Source: an uncultured Bacilli bacterium (GTDB taxonomy: Bacteria; Bacillota_I; Bacilli_A; RF39; UBA660). From it: a stretch of DNA of 33,718 nt. The translations under genes and the position numbers were made by a program. Positions 19,070 through 25,541 of the stretch are shown one piece after another; within the stretch, counting starts at the first letter, position 1; each line of letters opens with the position of its first letter. The notes under the pieces are model-generated. The model saw only the letters and a program-made list of their open reading frames with translations. It was not told where the DNA came from and made no database searches. The stretch covers positions 1-33,718 of the forward strand of contig CALVQR010000008.1 of the NCBI GenBank assembly GCA_944358265.1, in the 5' to 3' direction.

Positions 19070-19108
19070 TAAAAAAAGGAATTAATTATTATTTTATTTA
19101 ATTCCTTT
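19070..19108 (-). terminator. terminator of the efflux/two-component operon
   Basis: On the minus strand AAAGGAATTAA pairs with TTAATTCCTTT around a 12-base loop and is followed by seven T residues. It overlaps the last codons of the kinase gene. The roughly 100 bases between it and the next promoter hold nothing I can identify. Confidence 0.88.
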
Positions 19109-20371
19109 ATTTATTATAAACTCAACACCATTTTTTTTATTTTTAGCTATAATACTATAGCCAATCAAGTCGCAGTTGCCCTTTACGATTGAAAGTCCAA
19201 GACCATTTTCACCTTTTTTACCTTTTTTATAAGGCTCAAAAATGTTATTTATTAATGTTTTTTCTATATTTTCACCATCATTAAAGAATATAATTTGTTT
19301 TTCTTTTATTGTTATCATAATATCTTTTTTAGCATATCTAACAGCGTTATTTATGATATTGGTTATTATTGATTCCCAAATATCTTCCGTTCCATCATAT
19401 AAAACATTTTTTTTATCACATTTGATTTCATAATTTAGATTGTTGTTTATAATTTTATATTTTTCAATTATATTTTCTACTATAGGTAGAATTTTTATTT
19501 TTTTATCGTTTTTATAGGAGTTTTGTAAATATGTAATTTTATTTAATTCTAATAGGGTTTTTACTTTATTTTCTAACTTTTTAATTTGTTCATCGCTCAC
19601 TTTAATAACATTATCGTAGGGTTCAATGCCATCATTGTAAGCTTCAATATAGGATTTTATTACTGTAATAGGTGTTTTAAAATCATGTGATATATTTTGA
19701 TACATTTCAGTTTTATATTTTTCTCTTGATAAAATTATTTCTTTCATTTGATCAATAGTATTATCTAAAAGCATTATTTCATCATCAAATTCATATTTAC
19801 TTTTTACTACATCATAGTTTTCATTATTCATATTATTTACTTTTAATTTTAATCTTTGAAGTCTATTTACTATAAATTTAGACCAAAGTATTAAAAGTAC
19901 TAATATTATTCCAAATGTTATAACTATTATTGGTATTACTATTCCAAGAGAACTTCTTCGAAGTATTTTAATATACCTATCTGTAGTAATTGCAATTGTT
20001 TTACTATCATCTTCTACTTTCACCGAGTAATAATATGTTCTTGTTTTATAAATGAATTTCCCATGACTTCCATTTATATATTTTAGGAGTTTTGAATAAT
20101 CATCTACTTTTAGTATACTTTTATAATTATTGCTTATAAAAGTACCATTTATATTGTATATTATATATGCTATATTCTGATATTTTTTGTTTAATGATTC
20201 TTTATCATCAAACATTTCAAGGGGTTGTTCTAAATAATTATATACAGTTTCTTCAAAAAATGGTTCCATTGACTTTGGTAATATTATATTTATCGAAAAA
20301 ATCATTATAAGTAGTGATATTAATGTTATTACAACTAATTGTTTAGATAAATTTATTTTTATATTTTTCAT
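19094..20371 (-). CDS. sensor histidine kinase
   Basis: This 425-residue membrane kinase has a transmembrane segment at 11-31, an extracellular sensor of about 110 residues (32-140), and a second segment at 142-164. It then has a HAMP-like linker, the dimerisation/phosphoacceptor box NISHDFKTPI with H229, an N box (NNAVRYAKKD), and a GLGLSIV G box. The sensor contains aromatic repeats (YKTRTYYYSV) but no family I recognise; its size sets it apart from the very short BceS-type sensors. Its ATG overlaps the response regulator stop by four bases, so the pair is translationally coupled. It is last in the permease-ATPase-regulator-kinase operon, and likely senses the compound that the transporter handles. 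Confidence 0.93.
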   Translation of the reverse strand: MKNIKINLSKQLVVITLISLLIMIFSINIILPKSMEPFFEETVYNYLEQPLEMFDDKESLNKKYQNIAYIIYNINGTFISNNYKSILKVDDYSKLLKYINGSHGKFIYKTRTYYYSVKVEDDSKTIAITTDRYIKILRRSSLGIVIPIIVITFGIILVLLILWSKFIVNRLQRLKLKVNNMNNENYDVVKSKYEFDDEIMLLDNTIDQMKEIILSREKYKTEMYQNISHDFKTPITVIKSYIEAYNDGIEPYDNVIKVSDEQIKKLENKVKTLLELNKITYLQNSYKNDKKIKILPIVENIIEKYKIINNNLNYEIKCDKKNVLYDGTEDIWESIITNIINNAVRYAKKDIMITIKEKQIIFFNDGENIEKTLINNIFEPYKKGKKGENGLGLSIVKGNCDLIGYSIIAKNKKNGVEFIINKGIK

Positions 20372-21030
20372 GACAATCTATATCCAAATCCATATACTGT
20401 ATTTATATTTAGATTTTTCATTTTCTTTCTAAGTCTTCTGATTGAATCATCTACTACTCTATCACTACCATAATAATCAGTTCCCCAAACCTCACTTAGT
20501 ATCATTTCTCTTGTTAAAGATTTATTTTTATTATTTAGTAAATAAATTAATAATTCAAATTCTAATGTTGTTAATACTACCCTTTCGTCCTTATTATAAA
20601 CTGTCCTTTCTTCGGTGTTGATATCATAATCATTGTATTTTATTTTATGAAAGTCTTTACTATATACTCTTTTAATTATATTTTTAACTCTTAATACTAG
20701 TTCTTTAGGAGAATAAGGCTTTGCAATATAATCATCACATCCTAATTCTAGTCCCATTATTTTATCAATTGATTCATCTCTTGCAGATGAAAATATGACC
20801 GGAACTTCTTCATTTTTTTGTCTTATTTCCTTTATAATATCGTAACCTGTGATATCGTCTTCTAGCATTATATCAAGCATCCATAATTGGACACTACTAT
20901 CACTATTTATATAATCTATGGCATCTTGTCCTTTAGTAAAAGATATTATTTCAAAATCTTCTTTTTCTAAATAATTTTTAATTAATTTATTTAAAGATTC
21001 TTCATCTTCTACTAGTCCAATTTTATACAT
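20368..21030 (-). CDS. OmpR-family response regulator
   Basis: From the ATG at 21028-21030 (after GGTGGTGA) the protein has 220 residues. The receiver domain (1-115) shows acidic residues VEDEES, phosphoacceptor D53 in WMLDIMLED, the S/T switch in IFSSARDE and K104 in AKPYSP. The winged-helix output domain (about 130-220) has TTLEFELLIYLLNNKNKSLTRE, DRVVDDSIRRLRKKM and YGFGYRLS. It should activate or repress genes on phosphorylation by the adjoining kinase. Two 10-bp direct repeats upstream of the permease gene (23258-23277) are a plausible target, as OmpR-type proteins bind head-to-tail repeats at about this spacing. A GTG four codons upstream is less likely since it lies in the ribosome site. 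Confidence 0.93.
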   Translation of the reverse strand: MYKIGLVEDEESLNKLIKNYLEKEDFEIISFTKGQDAIDYINSDSSVQLWMLDIMLEDDITGYDIIKEIRQKNEEVPVIFSSARDESIDKIMGLELGCDDYIAKPYSPKELVLRVKNIIKRVYSKDFHKIKYNDYDINTEERTVYNKDERVVLTTLEFELLIYLLNNKNKSLTREMILSEVWGTDYYGSDRVVDDSIRRLRKKMKNLNINTVYGFGYRLS

Positions 21031-21065
21031 ATTACTCACCACCGACTATATTATAACATATTTTT

Positions 21066-21737
21066 TTATATTCTTGTAACACCACCTCCTTTGATGATAT
21101 AAACTATATCAGCACTGTTTGCGACTGCTTTTGAGTGCGTTACTACTATTACACCTTTACCTTGTTTTGCAAGATCTCTAAATATATCAATTATTTTCTT
21201 TTCTGTTTCTTCATCTAAATTACCAGTTGGTTCATCAGCAAAAACAAAAGGTATATCGGTAGATAAACATCTAGCGATCGCAACTCTTTGTTGTTCTCCG
21301 CCTGATAATTTTAAAACAGTTCTTGATGCAGTATCTTCATCAATGCCTAAATTACTTAATATTTCTAATATCTTTTTTCTTTTTTCTTTTTTATTTAATT
21401 TTCTTCCTGCGATATCCATTGCCACTTCAACATTTTCTATCGCAGTCATATAAGGGATTAGATTATATGATTGAAATATTATATTTACATACTTATTTCT
21501 GTAATTGTTATAACCTATCTCTTTTATACTTTTTCCATTATATAATATTTCTCCTTCTTTAAAAGTATCAAGACCTGATAATAAGGATAATAGTGTTGTT
21601 TTACCACTTCCGCTTTCTCCAAGTATTGCATAAAATTTGCCACTTTCAAATGTACATGATGCATTATTCAATACTTTTTTCAGCTTAATACCATCTTGAT
21701 AATAATGAGTTATATTTTTTGCTTCAATTTTATTCAT
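21066..21737 (-). CDS. ABC transporter ATP-binding protein (MacB/LolD type)
   Basis: Starting at the ATG preceded by AGAAGGGAG the protein has 223 residues. Walker A is GESGSGKT (40-47), the signature is LSGGEQQRVAIARCL, Walker B is FVFADEPTGNLD, and the H-loop is IVVTHS. The sequence belongs to the ATPase group that works with FtsX/MacB-type permeases in efflux, lipoprotein release or peptide sensing. The open frame extends 13 codons upstream into the permease gene, but the ribosome site makes 21737 the better start, leaving a four-base gap. It powers the adjacent permease. Confidence 0.94.
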   Translation of the reverse strand: MNKIEAKNITHYYQDGIKLKKVLNNASCTFESGKFYAILGESGSGKTTLLSLLSGLDTFKEGEILYNGKSIKEIGYNNYRNKYVNIIFQSYNLIPYMTAIENVEVAMDIAGRKLNKKEKRKKILEILSNLGIDEDTASRTVLKLSGGEQQRVAIARCLSTDIPFVFADEPTGNLDEETEKKIIDIFRDLAKQGKGVIVVTHSKAVANSADIVYIIKGGGVTRI

Positions 21738-21741
21738 ATAT

Positions 21742-23202
21742 CTACTCCCTTCTTGATAATATGTCTTTAGGATCACTATTTAATATTTTTATTGAAGGTA
21801 TTATCATTGAAATAAATATTATTACATACCCAATCATAAATAATAATCCAACATCTTTTAGTGTAACACTTACATCTATTTCATCAATTGTATCTATGTT
21901 ATTTAATCCCATAATAGATCCAATTGATTTGTCCTTTCTTTCTTCGAAATTTCCATTTTGGGCAAAAGAGCTTCCTCTTCCTCCCATTGGACTGTTATTG
22001 CTTATCATTGTACTTTGATTTTGATTATCTATAAGTATGTCTGCAAATTTTTGACTTGTAAATAGTGATGTACCTATTGATAAAATAAATGATATACTTG
22101 CAATTATTATAAGCTCTACAATAAATTGTCCAATTATTTTTTTCTTTTTTTCGCCTAATGATAAAAGTACCCCAATTTCATAATTTCTATCTTTTAGCGA
22201 ATTTATTACCATTAAACTTATTACAACAATAGCTGCAATTACTACTATTACAAGTATAGTTCTTGAGAATTTTGCAACACCTTCAATAGATGATATCATT
22301 TGTTCATATGTTTGATTATCTATATCAAGAGTTAAATATCTATCAGATAAATCTGTTATTAATTTATTTGCCTCTTTTTTAAACTCATCAGCATTTTCTG
22401 GATCATTTAAATAAAATACTGCTTTTGTAATATTATAATTTCCGTTATTATATTCTTCGTCAGTTAAGAATTTTTCACCAGTTTCTGTATTGATATATAT
22501 TAAATTGTAGCTATTATTAAATTCTTCTTTATTTTGATATATACCAGTTACAGTTAATGTATGACTTTCTCCATCTGAATCCTTTATCTTTATTTCACTG
22601 CCTATTTCTAAGTTGTTATAACTAGCAAGTTCATATGAAATAATAACTGCATCCTCATCATCCTCTTCAAATGCTTCTCCCTCAACTAATTCTATTTGAC
22701 CGTCTACATATTTATCTTCTAATTTAAATGTATTTATTGCTTCAATTTGAAGAGAATTATTCATCATTCTACCTTTGTTTTCTGATTCATTAATAGATTC
22801 TTCATATAAATTAAATGATTCTTCCTCACCTTTAACTGTAAAATAATATTTTACATCAGATACATAATTAATTTCTTTTAATATATTAACATCGTTAATT
22901 GTAGCATTGCTCTGATTCATAGCTTCATGCATATCTTGCATTTGCTCTTTCCTGTTTTGCAGTTCTTCATTATCAGTTTGTGCTTCATTATCATTCATAA
23001 AATCTTCTCTTAATTTTTCCATATCAGTAGAAAGAATCACTTCACTCCCAAGCGATTTTCTAGCTATATTCATAGATTCTTCAGTAGCATTCTTAATAGA
23101 TATTGATGATAGTACTAAGTTTGCTACTATAAATAGGAATAGAAAAAATATTACTGTTTTTGATTTTCTTCTTGTTACACTAAGTTTAGCTCTCTTAAAC
23201 AT
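21742..23202 (-). CDS. ABC transporter permease, FtsX/MacB type
   Basis: The 486-residue protein has the MacB-like layout: one transmembrane segment near the N-terminus (about 14-34), a large extracellular domain (about 35-310), then three segments (about 315-335, 358-378 and 451-470). The extracellular domain opens with a Gln/Asn/Met/Glu-rich stretch (about 65-100) and contains the usual LEIGSEIKIKDSDGESHTL core. A second extracellular loop between the last two segments is rich in Gly, Asn and Ser (SPMGGRGSSFAQNGNF). It pairs with the ATPase four bases downstream. ATG follows AAGGAGGAAATAA. With the two-component genes it forms a module ordered like the pneumococcal vex-vnc locus; whether it exports a peptide or antibiotic is inference. 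Confidence 0.9.
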   Translation of the reverse strand: MFKRAKLSVTRRKSKTVIFFLFLFIVANLVLSSISIKNATEESMNIARKSLGSEVILSTDMEKLREDFMNDNEAQTDNEELQNRKEQMQDMHEAMNQSNATINDVNILKEINYVSDVKYYFTVKGEEESFNLYEESINESENKGRMMNNSLQIEAINTFKLEDKYVDGQIELVEGEAFEEDDEDAVIISYELASYNNLEIGSEIKIKDSDGESHTLTVTGIYQNKEEFNNSYNLIYINTETGEKFLTDEEYNNGNYNITKAVFYLNDPENADEFKKEANKLITDLSDRYLTLDIDNQTYEQMISSIEGVAKFSRTILVIVVIAAIVVISLMVINSLKDRNYEIGVLLSLGEKKKKIIGQFIVELIIIASISFILSIGTSLFTSQKFADILIDNQNQSTMISNNSPMGGRGSSFAQNGNFEERKDKSIGSIMGLNNIDTIDEIDVSVTLKDVGLLFMIGYVIIFISMIIPSIKILNSDPKDILSRRE

Positions 23203-23255: not shown

Positions 23256-23783
23256 TTAATTGTGTGAAATTGTGTGATTATATTTTGCTTTTACTACATA
23301 CCTTATTTGATTATTAAATGTGCATGTTATTAATGTTAATATCTTTTTATTGTATACATTGTCTAGTACTGTTTTATCTTTAATGTTTATATATTGTAAA
23401 GAATCCACAGTATAAAGATATTCATCTTTAAAATTACTTATAATTATTTCATCATTTAATTTTAATTTATAAAGCTTTGAAAAAACATATTTATTATTAT
23501 GACCTGCGAGTATAATATTTCCATATTCACTTGAAATTAAGTTTTTATTGCTTATCATTAGAATTAAATTAGAATCTAATATTTCATTATATTCTCCCTT
23601 TTTTATTAAACCTTTATAATTTAATTTTTCAATTACTAAATATGCATCATATTTTCTATCAATATTATTATTTCTTATAACTTCATCTATTTTAAGTTCT
23701 TCGTTTATATCTTTATTATAATTATAAAATAGTATAAAAACAGCTATAAAAATAAAAACAATACTAATTATTTTTCTTAACAA
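23256..23783 (-). CDS. sortase, class D-like
   Basis: From the TTG at 23781-23783 (nine bases after AGGTG) the enzyme has 175 residues. A membrane anchor spans about 5-21 (ISIVFIFIAVFILFY). The sortase core follows, with catalytic H95 in ILAGHNNKYVFSKL, catalytic C154 in TLITCTFNNQ (TLxTC), and R161 seven residues later. It is a transpeptidase that cleaves a sorting motif and attaches surface proteins to the cell wall or to each other. It overlaps the 3' end of the adhesin gene by about 20 bases, so that protein is its likely substrate. An upstream GTG at 23795 is the alternative start. Class assignment from short sequence features is tentative. Confidence 0.88.
   Translation of the reverse strand: MLRKIISIVFIFIAVFILFYNYNKDINEELKIDEVIRNNNIDRKYDAYLVIEKLNYKGLIKKGEYNEILDSNLILMISNKNLISSEYGNIILAGHNNKYVFSKLYKLKLNDEIIISNFKDEYLYTVDSLQYINIKDKTVLDNVYNKKILTLITCTFNNQIRYVVKAKYNHTISHN
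23258..23277. repeat. two 10-bp tandem direct repeats upstream of the efflux operon
   Basis: AATTGTGTGA is repeated exactly, head to tail. The repeats overlap the last codons of the sortase gene and lie about 55-75 bases before the permease start codon, next to the probable -35 region. Their period matches the spacing preferred by OmpR-family regulators such as the one encoded in this operon. Confidence 0.6.
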
Positions 23784-25494
23784 AATTGTATACACCTAAA
23801 CTTGAAAATATAAGAAATAAAAGCATATATTTATTGATACTCATACTAGTTACTGGCATAATTGTTTTTTCATTTGTTACATCTATTTTACCTATACATG
23901 TACTATCATTAACATAAAATTCATATTTTTCTTCATTTAATATATATCCACTTGGTACTTTTATTTGTTTAATATAATATTTCCCATAAGGTAAATCAGT
24001 AATAATAACTTCTCCATTTTCATCTGTTTTTCCACTAAACACTAAATTATCATTTTCATCATATACATTTATTTCTACATCTTTTAATTTTTTATCTTCT
24101 TTTGATGATATATATACAATATCACACAGCACTTTATTATTTATAATTTCTATATTTTCATTAATTATATATGTTTTGTCATCTTTATATTTTAAATCTA
24201 CTTTGTAAAATTTATCATCTAACTTATACCCTTCAAGTGTATTTAATTCTTTTATGTAATAAATCCCTAAAGGTAAATTATCAAAATAATTATCACTTCC
24301 GTTTGTAATTAATGTATCTATTTGTTTATAATCTTTATTAAATAAACCTATTTCGACACTATTTAAATTATTACCTTCTTCATCTGTTTTTTTTATAGAT
24401 ATCTTCCCTTTTGGAACATCATTAAATATGTCTACATCATAGTATGGCCCATTCATTTTAATATTATCGTCAATCTTAATTGTTTTATTTTCCTTATTTA
24501 CCACATATCCATTTGATGCACTTACCTCTTCAATTATATAATTACCTTTATTTAATTTTACAGAAGCATATCCATTTTTATCTACTTTAATATTGTCATA
24601 TACATATGAATCAGATGAAATATCTTTTATCTTAAATACTGTCCCTTCTTCTTTTATTAATTCGTTAGTATTTTTATCTCTTTTATTTATTCTTACATTA
24701 ACTTTGTCTGCGACTATAGTAAATTCAGATTCCTTTTTATCACTAAATCCAAATAATGCCATTTTTTGACTATTACTATTAGGTACATAGTATACTTTTG
24801 TTTTTTCATTACTTAAATTTTTAGAAACTAATTTTACTTTGAATGTACCAAATTTATTTAAATCAAAAGTAATCAAGGATCCATTTTTTGTATATTTTAA
24901 ATCTGTAACAATATCAAAGTTATTAATTACATTATTTGTATCGTTAATAATTACCTTATCATTAAAATATTGAACATAGGTTCTTCCTGAAAATGATGGT
25001 AAAGTATTATGTAAATTTACAAGTCTAAGTATTTCATTTTTTTCTTTTTCCACATTTATTTCATTACCATTTTCATTATATTCTGTAGTCCATTTAACAT
25101 AATCATCTTTAAATAACCAAATAAGTTCTTGAGTAGCAAGATAATAATTTAATGTATTATGATTTTCATATCCGTATCCATAGTGTACAATTAATTCCAT
25201 TTTATTTTTTTCTTCCATAGTATAACCTGATACACTAAAATCTTCTGTGGAACTATATATATTGCTACCTATCACTCTCCATGGTTCTATACAATATACT
25301 AACTTATTATTTTGATACCTATACGGAAGTTTCCCATACGACATTAATACTCCGTTTTTATAGTGATATGCATATACATTATCAATATAATTTGTAGTTA
25401 AAGTAGAATCATTTTCAAGTGCATATGCTTTGTTCACATTAAATATTCCCCCTAATAATATTCCTATCAGTACTACTAAAAAAATTCTTTTCAT
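23764..25494 (-). CDS. sortase-anchored surface protein with thioester and Cna-B domains
   Basis: This 576-residue protein has a signal peptide (1-26). A thioester domain covers about 35-170: C68 in LVYCIEPW and Q122 in ATQELIWLF are the residues that would form the internal Cys-Gln bond used for covalent adhesion to host surfaces. Three Cna-B/SpaA-type beta domains follow at about 265-357, 362-455 and 456-542, with lysines RINKRD, ISIKKTD and ISSKEDKK at their starts. The glutamate needed for isopeptide formation is seen in the first (YIIEEV) and second (YYIKEL, E416) but is Q510 in the third. The C-terminus has a sorting signal: MPVTS (546-550), a hydrophobic segment and VKKNN. MPVTS departs from LPXTG. 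ATG follows GAGGTGATAGA. The sortase gene overlaps downstream. Confidence 0.9.
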   Translation of the reverse strand: MKRIFLVVLIGILLGGIFNVNKAYALENDSTLTTNYIDNVYAYHYKNGVLMSYGKLPYRYQNNKLVYCIEPWRVIGSNIYSSTEDFSVSGYTMEEKNKMELIVHYGYGYENHNTLNYYLATQELIWLFKDDYVKWTTEYNENGNEINVEKEKNEILRLVNLHNTLPSFSGRTYVQYFNDKVIINDTNNVINNFDIVTDLKYTKNGSLITFDLNKFGTFKVKLVSKNLSNEKTKVYYVPNSNSQKMALFGFSDKKESEFTIVADKVNVRINKRDKNTNELIKEEGTVFKIKDISSDSYVYDNIKVDKNGYASVKLNKGNYIIEEVSASNGYVVNKENKTIKIDDNIKMNGPYYDVDIFNDVPKGKISIKKTDEEGNNLNSVEIGLFNKDYKQIDTLITNGSDNYFDNLPLGIYYIKELNTLEGYKLDDKFYKVDLKYKDDKTYIINENIEIINNKVLCDIVYISSKEDKKLKDVEINVYDENDNLVFSGKTDENGEVIITDLPYGKYYIKQIKVPSGYILNEEKYEFYVNDSTCIGKIDVTNEKTIMPVTSMSINKYMLLFLIFSSLGVYNFVKKNN

Positions 25495-25541
25495 TCTATC
25501 ACCTCAATATAATTATTCCCCGTAAATTTTTTAATTCCACT

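Follow-up and report, generated by a model that had tools for sequence, protein, structure and literature searches.

A class II thioester adhesin of an uncultured Bacilli bacterium with an overlapping sortase gene and an MPVTS sorting motif, and a related group of sortases carrying glutamine at the arginine position

The closest described systems are the adhesins BaTIE, SaTIE and EfmTIE86 (PDB 6FWV, 6FX6; PMC6194298), with which the protein analysed here shares a class II thioester domain (TED), the [YFL]C and TQxxPhiW motifs, a distal Gln and three Cna-B domains. BaTIE also resembles it in having a sortase sorting signal, which is LPATG in BaTIE. In SaTIE, Cys296 and Gln467 have been shown to make the thioester bond, and the Gln of the TQxxPhiW motif is not needed for bond formation (PMC6194298). 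The thioester protein SfbI reacts with fibrinogen (PMC4450167), while p34, the TIE protein of pLS20, which likewise consists of a class II TED and a Cna-B stalk, is required for conjugation and loses its function upon the C68S exchange (PMC8092201). pLS20 lacks a sortase gene and p34 lacks a sorting signal, whereas the unit described below has both. Among sortases of solved structure, Sortase D of C. perfringens (PDB 4D70) is the best match to the family of the enzyme encoded here and has the TxTC and R motifs in common with it. The present enzyme differs from Sortase D in scoring under all NCBIfam cut-offs, in its MPxT[ST] substrate and in the overlap of its gene with the substrate gene. In sortase B and pilin sortase C clusters the sortase gene also lies beside the substrate gene; the locus described here differs from these in serving a single adhesin instead of pilin or haem proteins, in the gene overlap and, among relatives, in the fusion of enzyme and substrate.

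We analysed a stretch of 33,718 nucleotides from an uncultured Bacilli bacterium, hereafter the window, in which an adhesin gene and a sortase gene form an overlapping cassette (Table 1). We read this cassette, with a probability of about 0.85, as a self-contained display unit in which a thioester TED adhesin on a SpaA stalk would be anchored to the wall by the sortase of the overlapping gene and would bond covalently to a partner. As a class II TIE adhesin the cassette is already known in kind; the variant with an overlapping sortase and a non-LPXTG motif is new. In comparison to BaTIE, SaTIE and EfmTIE86, the window has MPVTS, a sortase of its own encoded in overlap and, in the third SpaA domain, a cysteine pair that likely replaces the isopeptide.

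Table 1. Positions of the features in the window, followed by features at other loci (locus handle, then position).
Feature	Position	Strand	Evidence or remark
Class II TED/SpaA adhesin CDS, 576 aa	23764..25494	(-)	ATG 25494
Adhesin ribosome-binding site GAGGTGAT	about 25498-25505	(-)	strong
Thioester domain, about residues 25-265	24700..25422	(-)	VIA Z 20.0 to 6fx6; profile E 1.4e-16 to 6fx6
Cys68, predicted thioester cysteine, YCIE motif	25291..25293	(-)	invariant in 30 homologues; aligned with SaTIE Cys296
Gln122 of TQxxPhiW motif, not the bond-forming Gln	25129..25131	(-)	SaTIE alignment; motif definitions in the literature
Gln243, predicted thioester partner of Cys68	24766..24768	(-)	aligned with SaTIE Gln467; invariant in 30 homologues
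SpaA/Cna-B domain 1, isopeptide triad K271/E323/N358	24421..24708	(-)	Pfam, model, alignment
SpaA/Cna-B domain 2, isopeptide triad K369/E416/N452	24127..24414	(-)	Pfam, model, alignment
SpaA/Cna-B domain 3, without isopeptide Lys/Glu; Cys457/Cys533	23860..24126	(-)	alignment
Cys457 codon	24124-24126	(-)	
Cys533 codon	23896-23898	(-)	
Sorting motif MPVTS, residues 546-550	23845..23859	(-)	M546, P547, T549 invariant in 8 congeners
Sorting signal: C-terminal TM helix (555-573) with KK tail	23764..23832	(-)	AF2 helix 555-573
Dedicated sortase CDS, TTG start 23783, H95/C154/R161	23256..23783	(-)	PF04203 E 1e-20
Adhesin/sortase overlap, 20 nt	23764..23783	(-)	conserved in congeners
Downstream same-strand neighbour block	19094..23202	(-)	
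ABC permease, downstream of cassette	21742-23202	(-)	
ATPase, downstream of cassette	21066-21776	(-)	
Response regulator, downstream of cassette	20368-21042	(-)	
Histidine kinase, downstream of cassette	19094-20371	(-)	
Second TED adhesin of the window's genome, contig 1	L043 4922-7708		motif VPNTE
Q-type sortase overlapping second TED adhesin	L043 4333-4962		Arg position = Gln
Further Q-type sortases	L094 7754-8374; L101-L130, L189-L217 and others		
Adhesin-sortase fusion	L074 3574-6282		
Adhesin-sortase fusion	L084 5986-8898		
Adhesin-sortase fusion	L088 6013-8943		
Adhesin-sortase fusion	L092 4287-7286		
Adhesin-sortase fusion	L205 2014-4968		

A Pfam scan of the adhesin identified the thioester domain at 28.2 bits (against a cut-off of 22) and, with E 4.9e-40, three SpaA stretches, in agreement with the stalk of three Cna-B domains described in an initial annotation of this DNA. 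The AlphaFold2 model of the protein (pLDDT 88.5) has the class II fold, its best structural match being the TED of SaTIE (6fx6; Z 20.0, with 227 residues aligned at rmsd 4.3, against Z 16.6 for 6fwv); the thioester fold expected from the annotation is thus borne out by structure prediction. A profile built from the eight congeneric orthologues matches the class II TEDs of the same two proteins, SaTIE of S. aureus and BaTIE. The YCIE motif at residues 67-70 corresponds to [YFL]C, TQELIW at residues 121-126, within the helix 115-126, corresponds to TQxxPhiW, and Gln243 is the late-strand Gln that follows the beta-sandwich insert in class II TEDs. Cys68, Gln122 and MPVTS are all present where the annotation had placed them, and Cys68, Gln122 and Gln243 are all invariant in the 30 aligned homologues. 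The proposed reactive pair of Cys68 and Gln122 is nevertheless retained only for its cysteine, since the alignment to SaTIE together with the published motif definitions assigns Gln122 to the TQxxPhiW motif and rules it out as the partner. The SaTIE alignment, the invariant residues and the fold match therefore support a thioester head with Gln243, and we predict a Cys68-Gln243 bond in it. Upstream, an AT-rich hairpin-like stretch precedes the adhesin gene; a promoter scan gave results no better than those for shuffled sequences, and no terminator was found.

The Lys-Glu-Asn set of the isopeptide typical of TIE stalks is present in SpaA domains 1 and 2 and absent from domain 3, where V460, Q510 and N541 occupy its positions. 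Cys457 is located in the first strand and Cys533 in a late strand of domain 3, where the isopeptide would sit. Each of the 20 sequences aligned from the MP-type clade has both residues, and none of the other 10 rows has the two together. A Cys457-Cys533 disulfide likely substitutes for the isopeptide in this domain. It is also conceivable, though we consider it unlikely, that domain 3 is degenerate and uncrosslinked with both cysteines reduced. Low-GC Firmicutes have few exported disulfides, which would suit such a domain, but the strict co-occurrence of the two cysteines and their placement at the isopeptide site both point away from it and towards the disulfide.

The adhesin ends in a signal of the general LPXTG type, having xPxT, a hydrophobic helix and a basic tail with KK at residues 573-574, while the pentapeptide itself is MPVTS and not LPXTG, as had been annotated. 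Among the window and seven congeners MPVTS occurs five times, MPITS once and MPITT twice. On the tree of relatives the residue after Thr (P1') changes 16 times, and spySrtA of S. pyogenes is reported to tolerate LPATS and LPATA (PMC9520033). Ser at the fifth position is therefore unremarkable, and its value as a sign of altered specificity is weakened. The first motif residue (M/L/Y against V/I), on the other hand, tracks the type of sortase. Altered sortase specificity, which had been suggested in the annotation, is only partly supported by the sequences.

In the sortase, H95, C154 and R161 make up the His-Cys-Arg of the C60 family and are invariant in 22 window-type enzymes. The closest relative with a solved structure is SrtD of C. 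perfringens (4d70, E 1.1e-19), but the sortase reaches only 51.1 bits with the NCBIfam class D model NF033746, the cut-off of which is 165, and we therefore term it class-D-like and no more. A role in building pili, as for class C sortases, is not favoured, given an NCBIfam class C score far under the cut-off and a single adhesin. Alignment places the start of the gene at the conserved TTG 23783 behind a conserved AGG, confirming the overlap with the adhesin gene noted earlier; the alternative start GTG 23795 would lengthen this overlap to 32 nt.

A dedicated adhesin-sortase pair is well supported by comparison of sequences. In 51 of the 52 pairs whose upstream gene could be read, the sortase overlaps an adhesin directly upstream, by 4 to 50 nt, and five loci encode adhesin and sortase in a single reading frame (Table 1). 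These fusion frames join a SpaA adhesin, a sorting motif, two membrane segments and a sortase domain, and a TED was found in the scanned ones except L205. The fusion arose at least twice, since L074 stands apart from the group of L084, L088 and L092 on the sortase tree. A search of the window's genome and four congeners (G001, G004, G005 and G007; two congener sites unread) for MPxT[ST] followed by a C-terminal TM segment, as had been proposed for like-ended proteins, found the cassette adhesin and no other protein; the pattern is blind to other motif variants such as LPxTG-type substrates of the same enzyme. As the window's genome is 64% complete, further substrates of this sortase could be absent from the data. 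The other sortase substrates that we encountered in the genus do not all carry LPXTG under another enzyme, since VPNTE is found with a Q-type sortase of its own (described below) and NPKT[SGF] with class B sortases.

It could be argued that the sortase serves the cell as a general enzyme, that MPVTS is an LPXTG motif that has drifted and that the overlap merely reflects a compact genome. The lability of P1' and the acceptance of LPATS by spySrtA would agree with this, and operon linkage by itself yields co-inheritance; since co-inherited gene pairs stay matched by linkage, exclusive specificity does not follow from pairing alone. We find this explanation rather improbable in view of the near-universal overlap, the recurrent fusions and the confinement of the motif to one protein in the five genomes searched. 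Furthermore, near-complete congeners have at least two further sortases, the class B ones adjoining NPKT-type substrates. No housekeeping LPXTG system of the genus was found among the loci inspected, PF04203 searches being able to miss sortases. The contig-1 sortase, which reaches 54.8 bits in a direct scan, escaped the whole-genome PF04203 search, whose sortase counts are therefore lower bounds. The matched enzyme-substrate pair of the initial annotation is accordingly upheld by the overlap, the natural fusions and a motif that no other protein was seen to carry in the genomes searched.

The second TED adhesin of the window's genome, on contig 1, is overlapped by a sortase with Gln at the position of the catalytic Arg, and we refer to such enzymes as Q-type. 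Profile matches to them are present in 134 of 193 genomes of the family. In an alignment of 69 copies the His and Cys are 100% conserved, as is the newly invariant Lys of a K-x-G motif in the beta6/beta7 region, while the Arg column holds Gln in 68 copies and Tyr in one. HMMER places this Gln opposite the Arg of SrtA from B. anthracis (2kw8), and a Q-type enzyme modelled at pLDDT 88.8 folds clearly as a sortase (Z 16-19). Among 296 sampled genomes of the class, hits at E 1e-18 lie only inside the family; of the weaker hits outside it, the three readable ones all carry Arg. No close Q-type sortase was found in plasmid records. Gln readings for class C sortases of other families (L222 and L223) were discarded as misaligned, their aligned stretch ending soon after the Cys.

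Q-type sortases are paired with V/IPxT adhesins. The change from Arg to Gln and that from L/M/Y to V/I at the first motif position each require a single change on the tree and define the same groups; as this coincidence is a single event, we make no statistical claim from it. Most TED adhesin cassettes of the family appear to use a sortase without Arg, the window's own enzyme, which keeps it, being the conventional sister form. This clade is the surprising part of the analysis, and together with the fusions it raises interest beyond the window cassette. All sortases have been said to have His-Cys-Arg (PMC13257024). In spySrtA the R216A exchange abolishes activity, although R216 faces away from the scissile carbonyl and makes hydrogen bonds to the P4/P3 carbonyls (PMC9520033). 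The kept His and Cys and the pairing with substrates argue that Q-type enzymes are active, and we lean towards the view that they work without the catalytic Arg and anchor most TED adhesins of the family. If they are active, a side chain capable of hydrogen bonding can stand in for the Arg, and a role in substrate positioning would be favoured over oxyanion stabilisation. The clade thus bears on an open question of sortase catalysis, and its natural Gln variant allows a direct test of the role of the Arg. On this reading, the adhesin-sortase fusions in the Q-type clade would be self-anchoring surface proteins. We found nothing relevant on naturally Arg-less sortases or on sortase-adhesin fusions in the open-licence literature. 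The natural sortase-motif pairs MPxT[ST], YPNTx and V/IPxTx may be useful for orthogonal protein ligation.

An orthologue with an overlapping sortase is present in all seven other genomes of the genus (eight of eight with the window), and since the whole arrangement recurs in every one of them, it is not due to chance. The order queH-adhesin-sortase is common to congeners and further genera and is followed in several genomes by (permease-ATPase-)response regulator-histidine kinase, the last two genes succeeding the cassette in several congeners. This shared order indicates a chromosomal, settled and old locus. The link of the cassette to the two-component system is positional, and any functional connection would be conjectural. 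An adhesin match is found in 35 of 60 sampled genomes, mostly of the same family. Most of the named relatives were recovered from the gut or rumen of rabbit, deer, sheep, goat, cattle and buffalo, and one is assigned to Candidatus Pelethosoma. The cassette illustrates how largely uncultured gut and rumen Bacilli may display adhesins that are potentially covalent and that each come with an anchoring enzyme of their own.

In the mechanism that we propose, the adhesin would leave the cell via Sec and present the Cys68-Gln243 thioester at the tip of the three-domain SpaA stalk, with isopeptide triads in domains 1 and 2 and with domain 3 probably locked by the disulfide. The MPVTS-TM-KK tail would be cut after Thr (MPVT|S) and the adhesin transferred to peptidoglycan by the sortase, the translation of enzyme and substrate being possibly coupled. 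The exposed thioester would then react with an amine on a partner, either the host or another bacterium, giving covalent attachment, which is the most likely role of the adhesin. The initial annotation had envisaged attachment to the host, but because the class II TED protein of pLS20 acts in mating, a bacterial target is as open as a host target.

That the adhesin acts between bacteria, in mating or aggregation, and not on host tissue is possible, and we hold this idea tentatively. Besides the pLS20 precedent, plasmid-borne relatives in Enterococcus and others would suit it, as would the paralogous cassette on contig 1 of the same genome (L043 1210-11011), which lies among genes for relaxase, MobC, ParA, ParB and SSB, named by eye from their sequences. 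That cassette appears to reside on a mobilisable or integrative element and recalls the mating role of the pLS20 TED protein. The window cassette, however, occupies a conserved chromosomal site without transfer genes.

Other surface systems were seen in the genus and its relatives. TED adhesins with Arg-type sortases (L090 and L099) have tails without xPxT, carrying LPSLY or LPQLY before the membrane segment. Large SpaA-repeat proteins (L044 685-5865, L054 3564-6176, L055 3865-8001) end in [IL][SN]xxTGQ, without the proline of the usual sorting motif, and a membrane segment. In the congeners, class B-like sortases (L146, L147, L150) adjoin proteins ending in NPKTSD, NPKTGD or NPKTFD and a membrane segment. 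A further class B-like sortase, on contig 43 of the window's genome (L045 1064-5122), lies by genes for a LytTR-type regulator, a histidine kinase and an AgrB-like protein, with a transposase-like gene on the opposite flank; this neighbourhood suggests quorum sensing.
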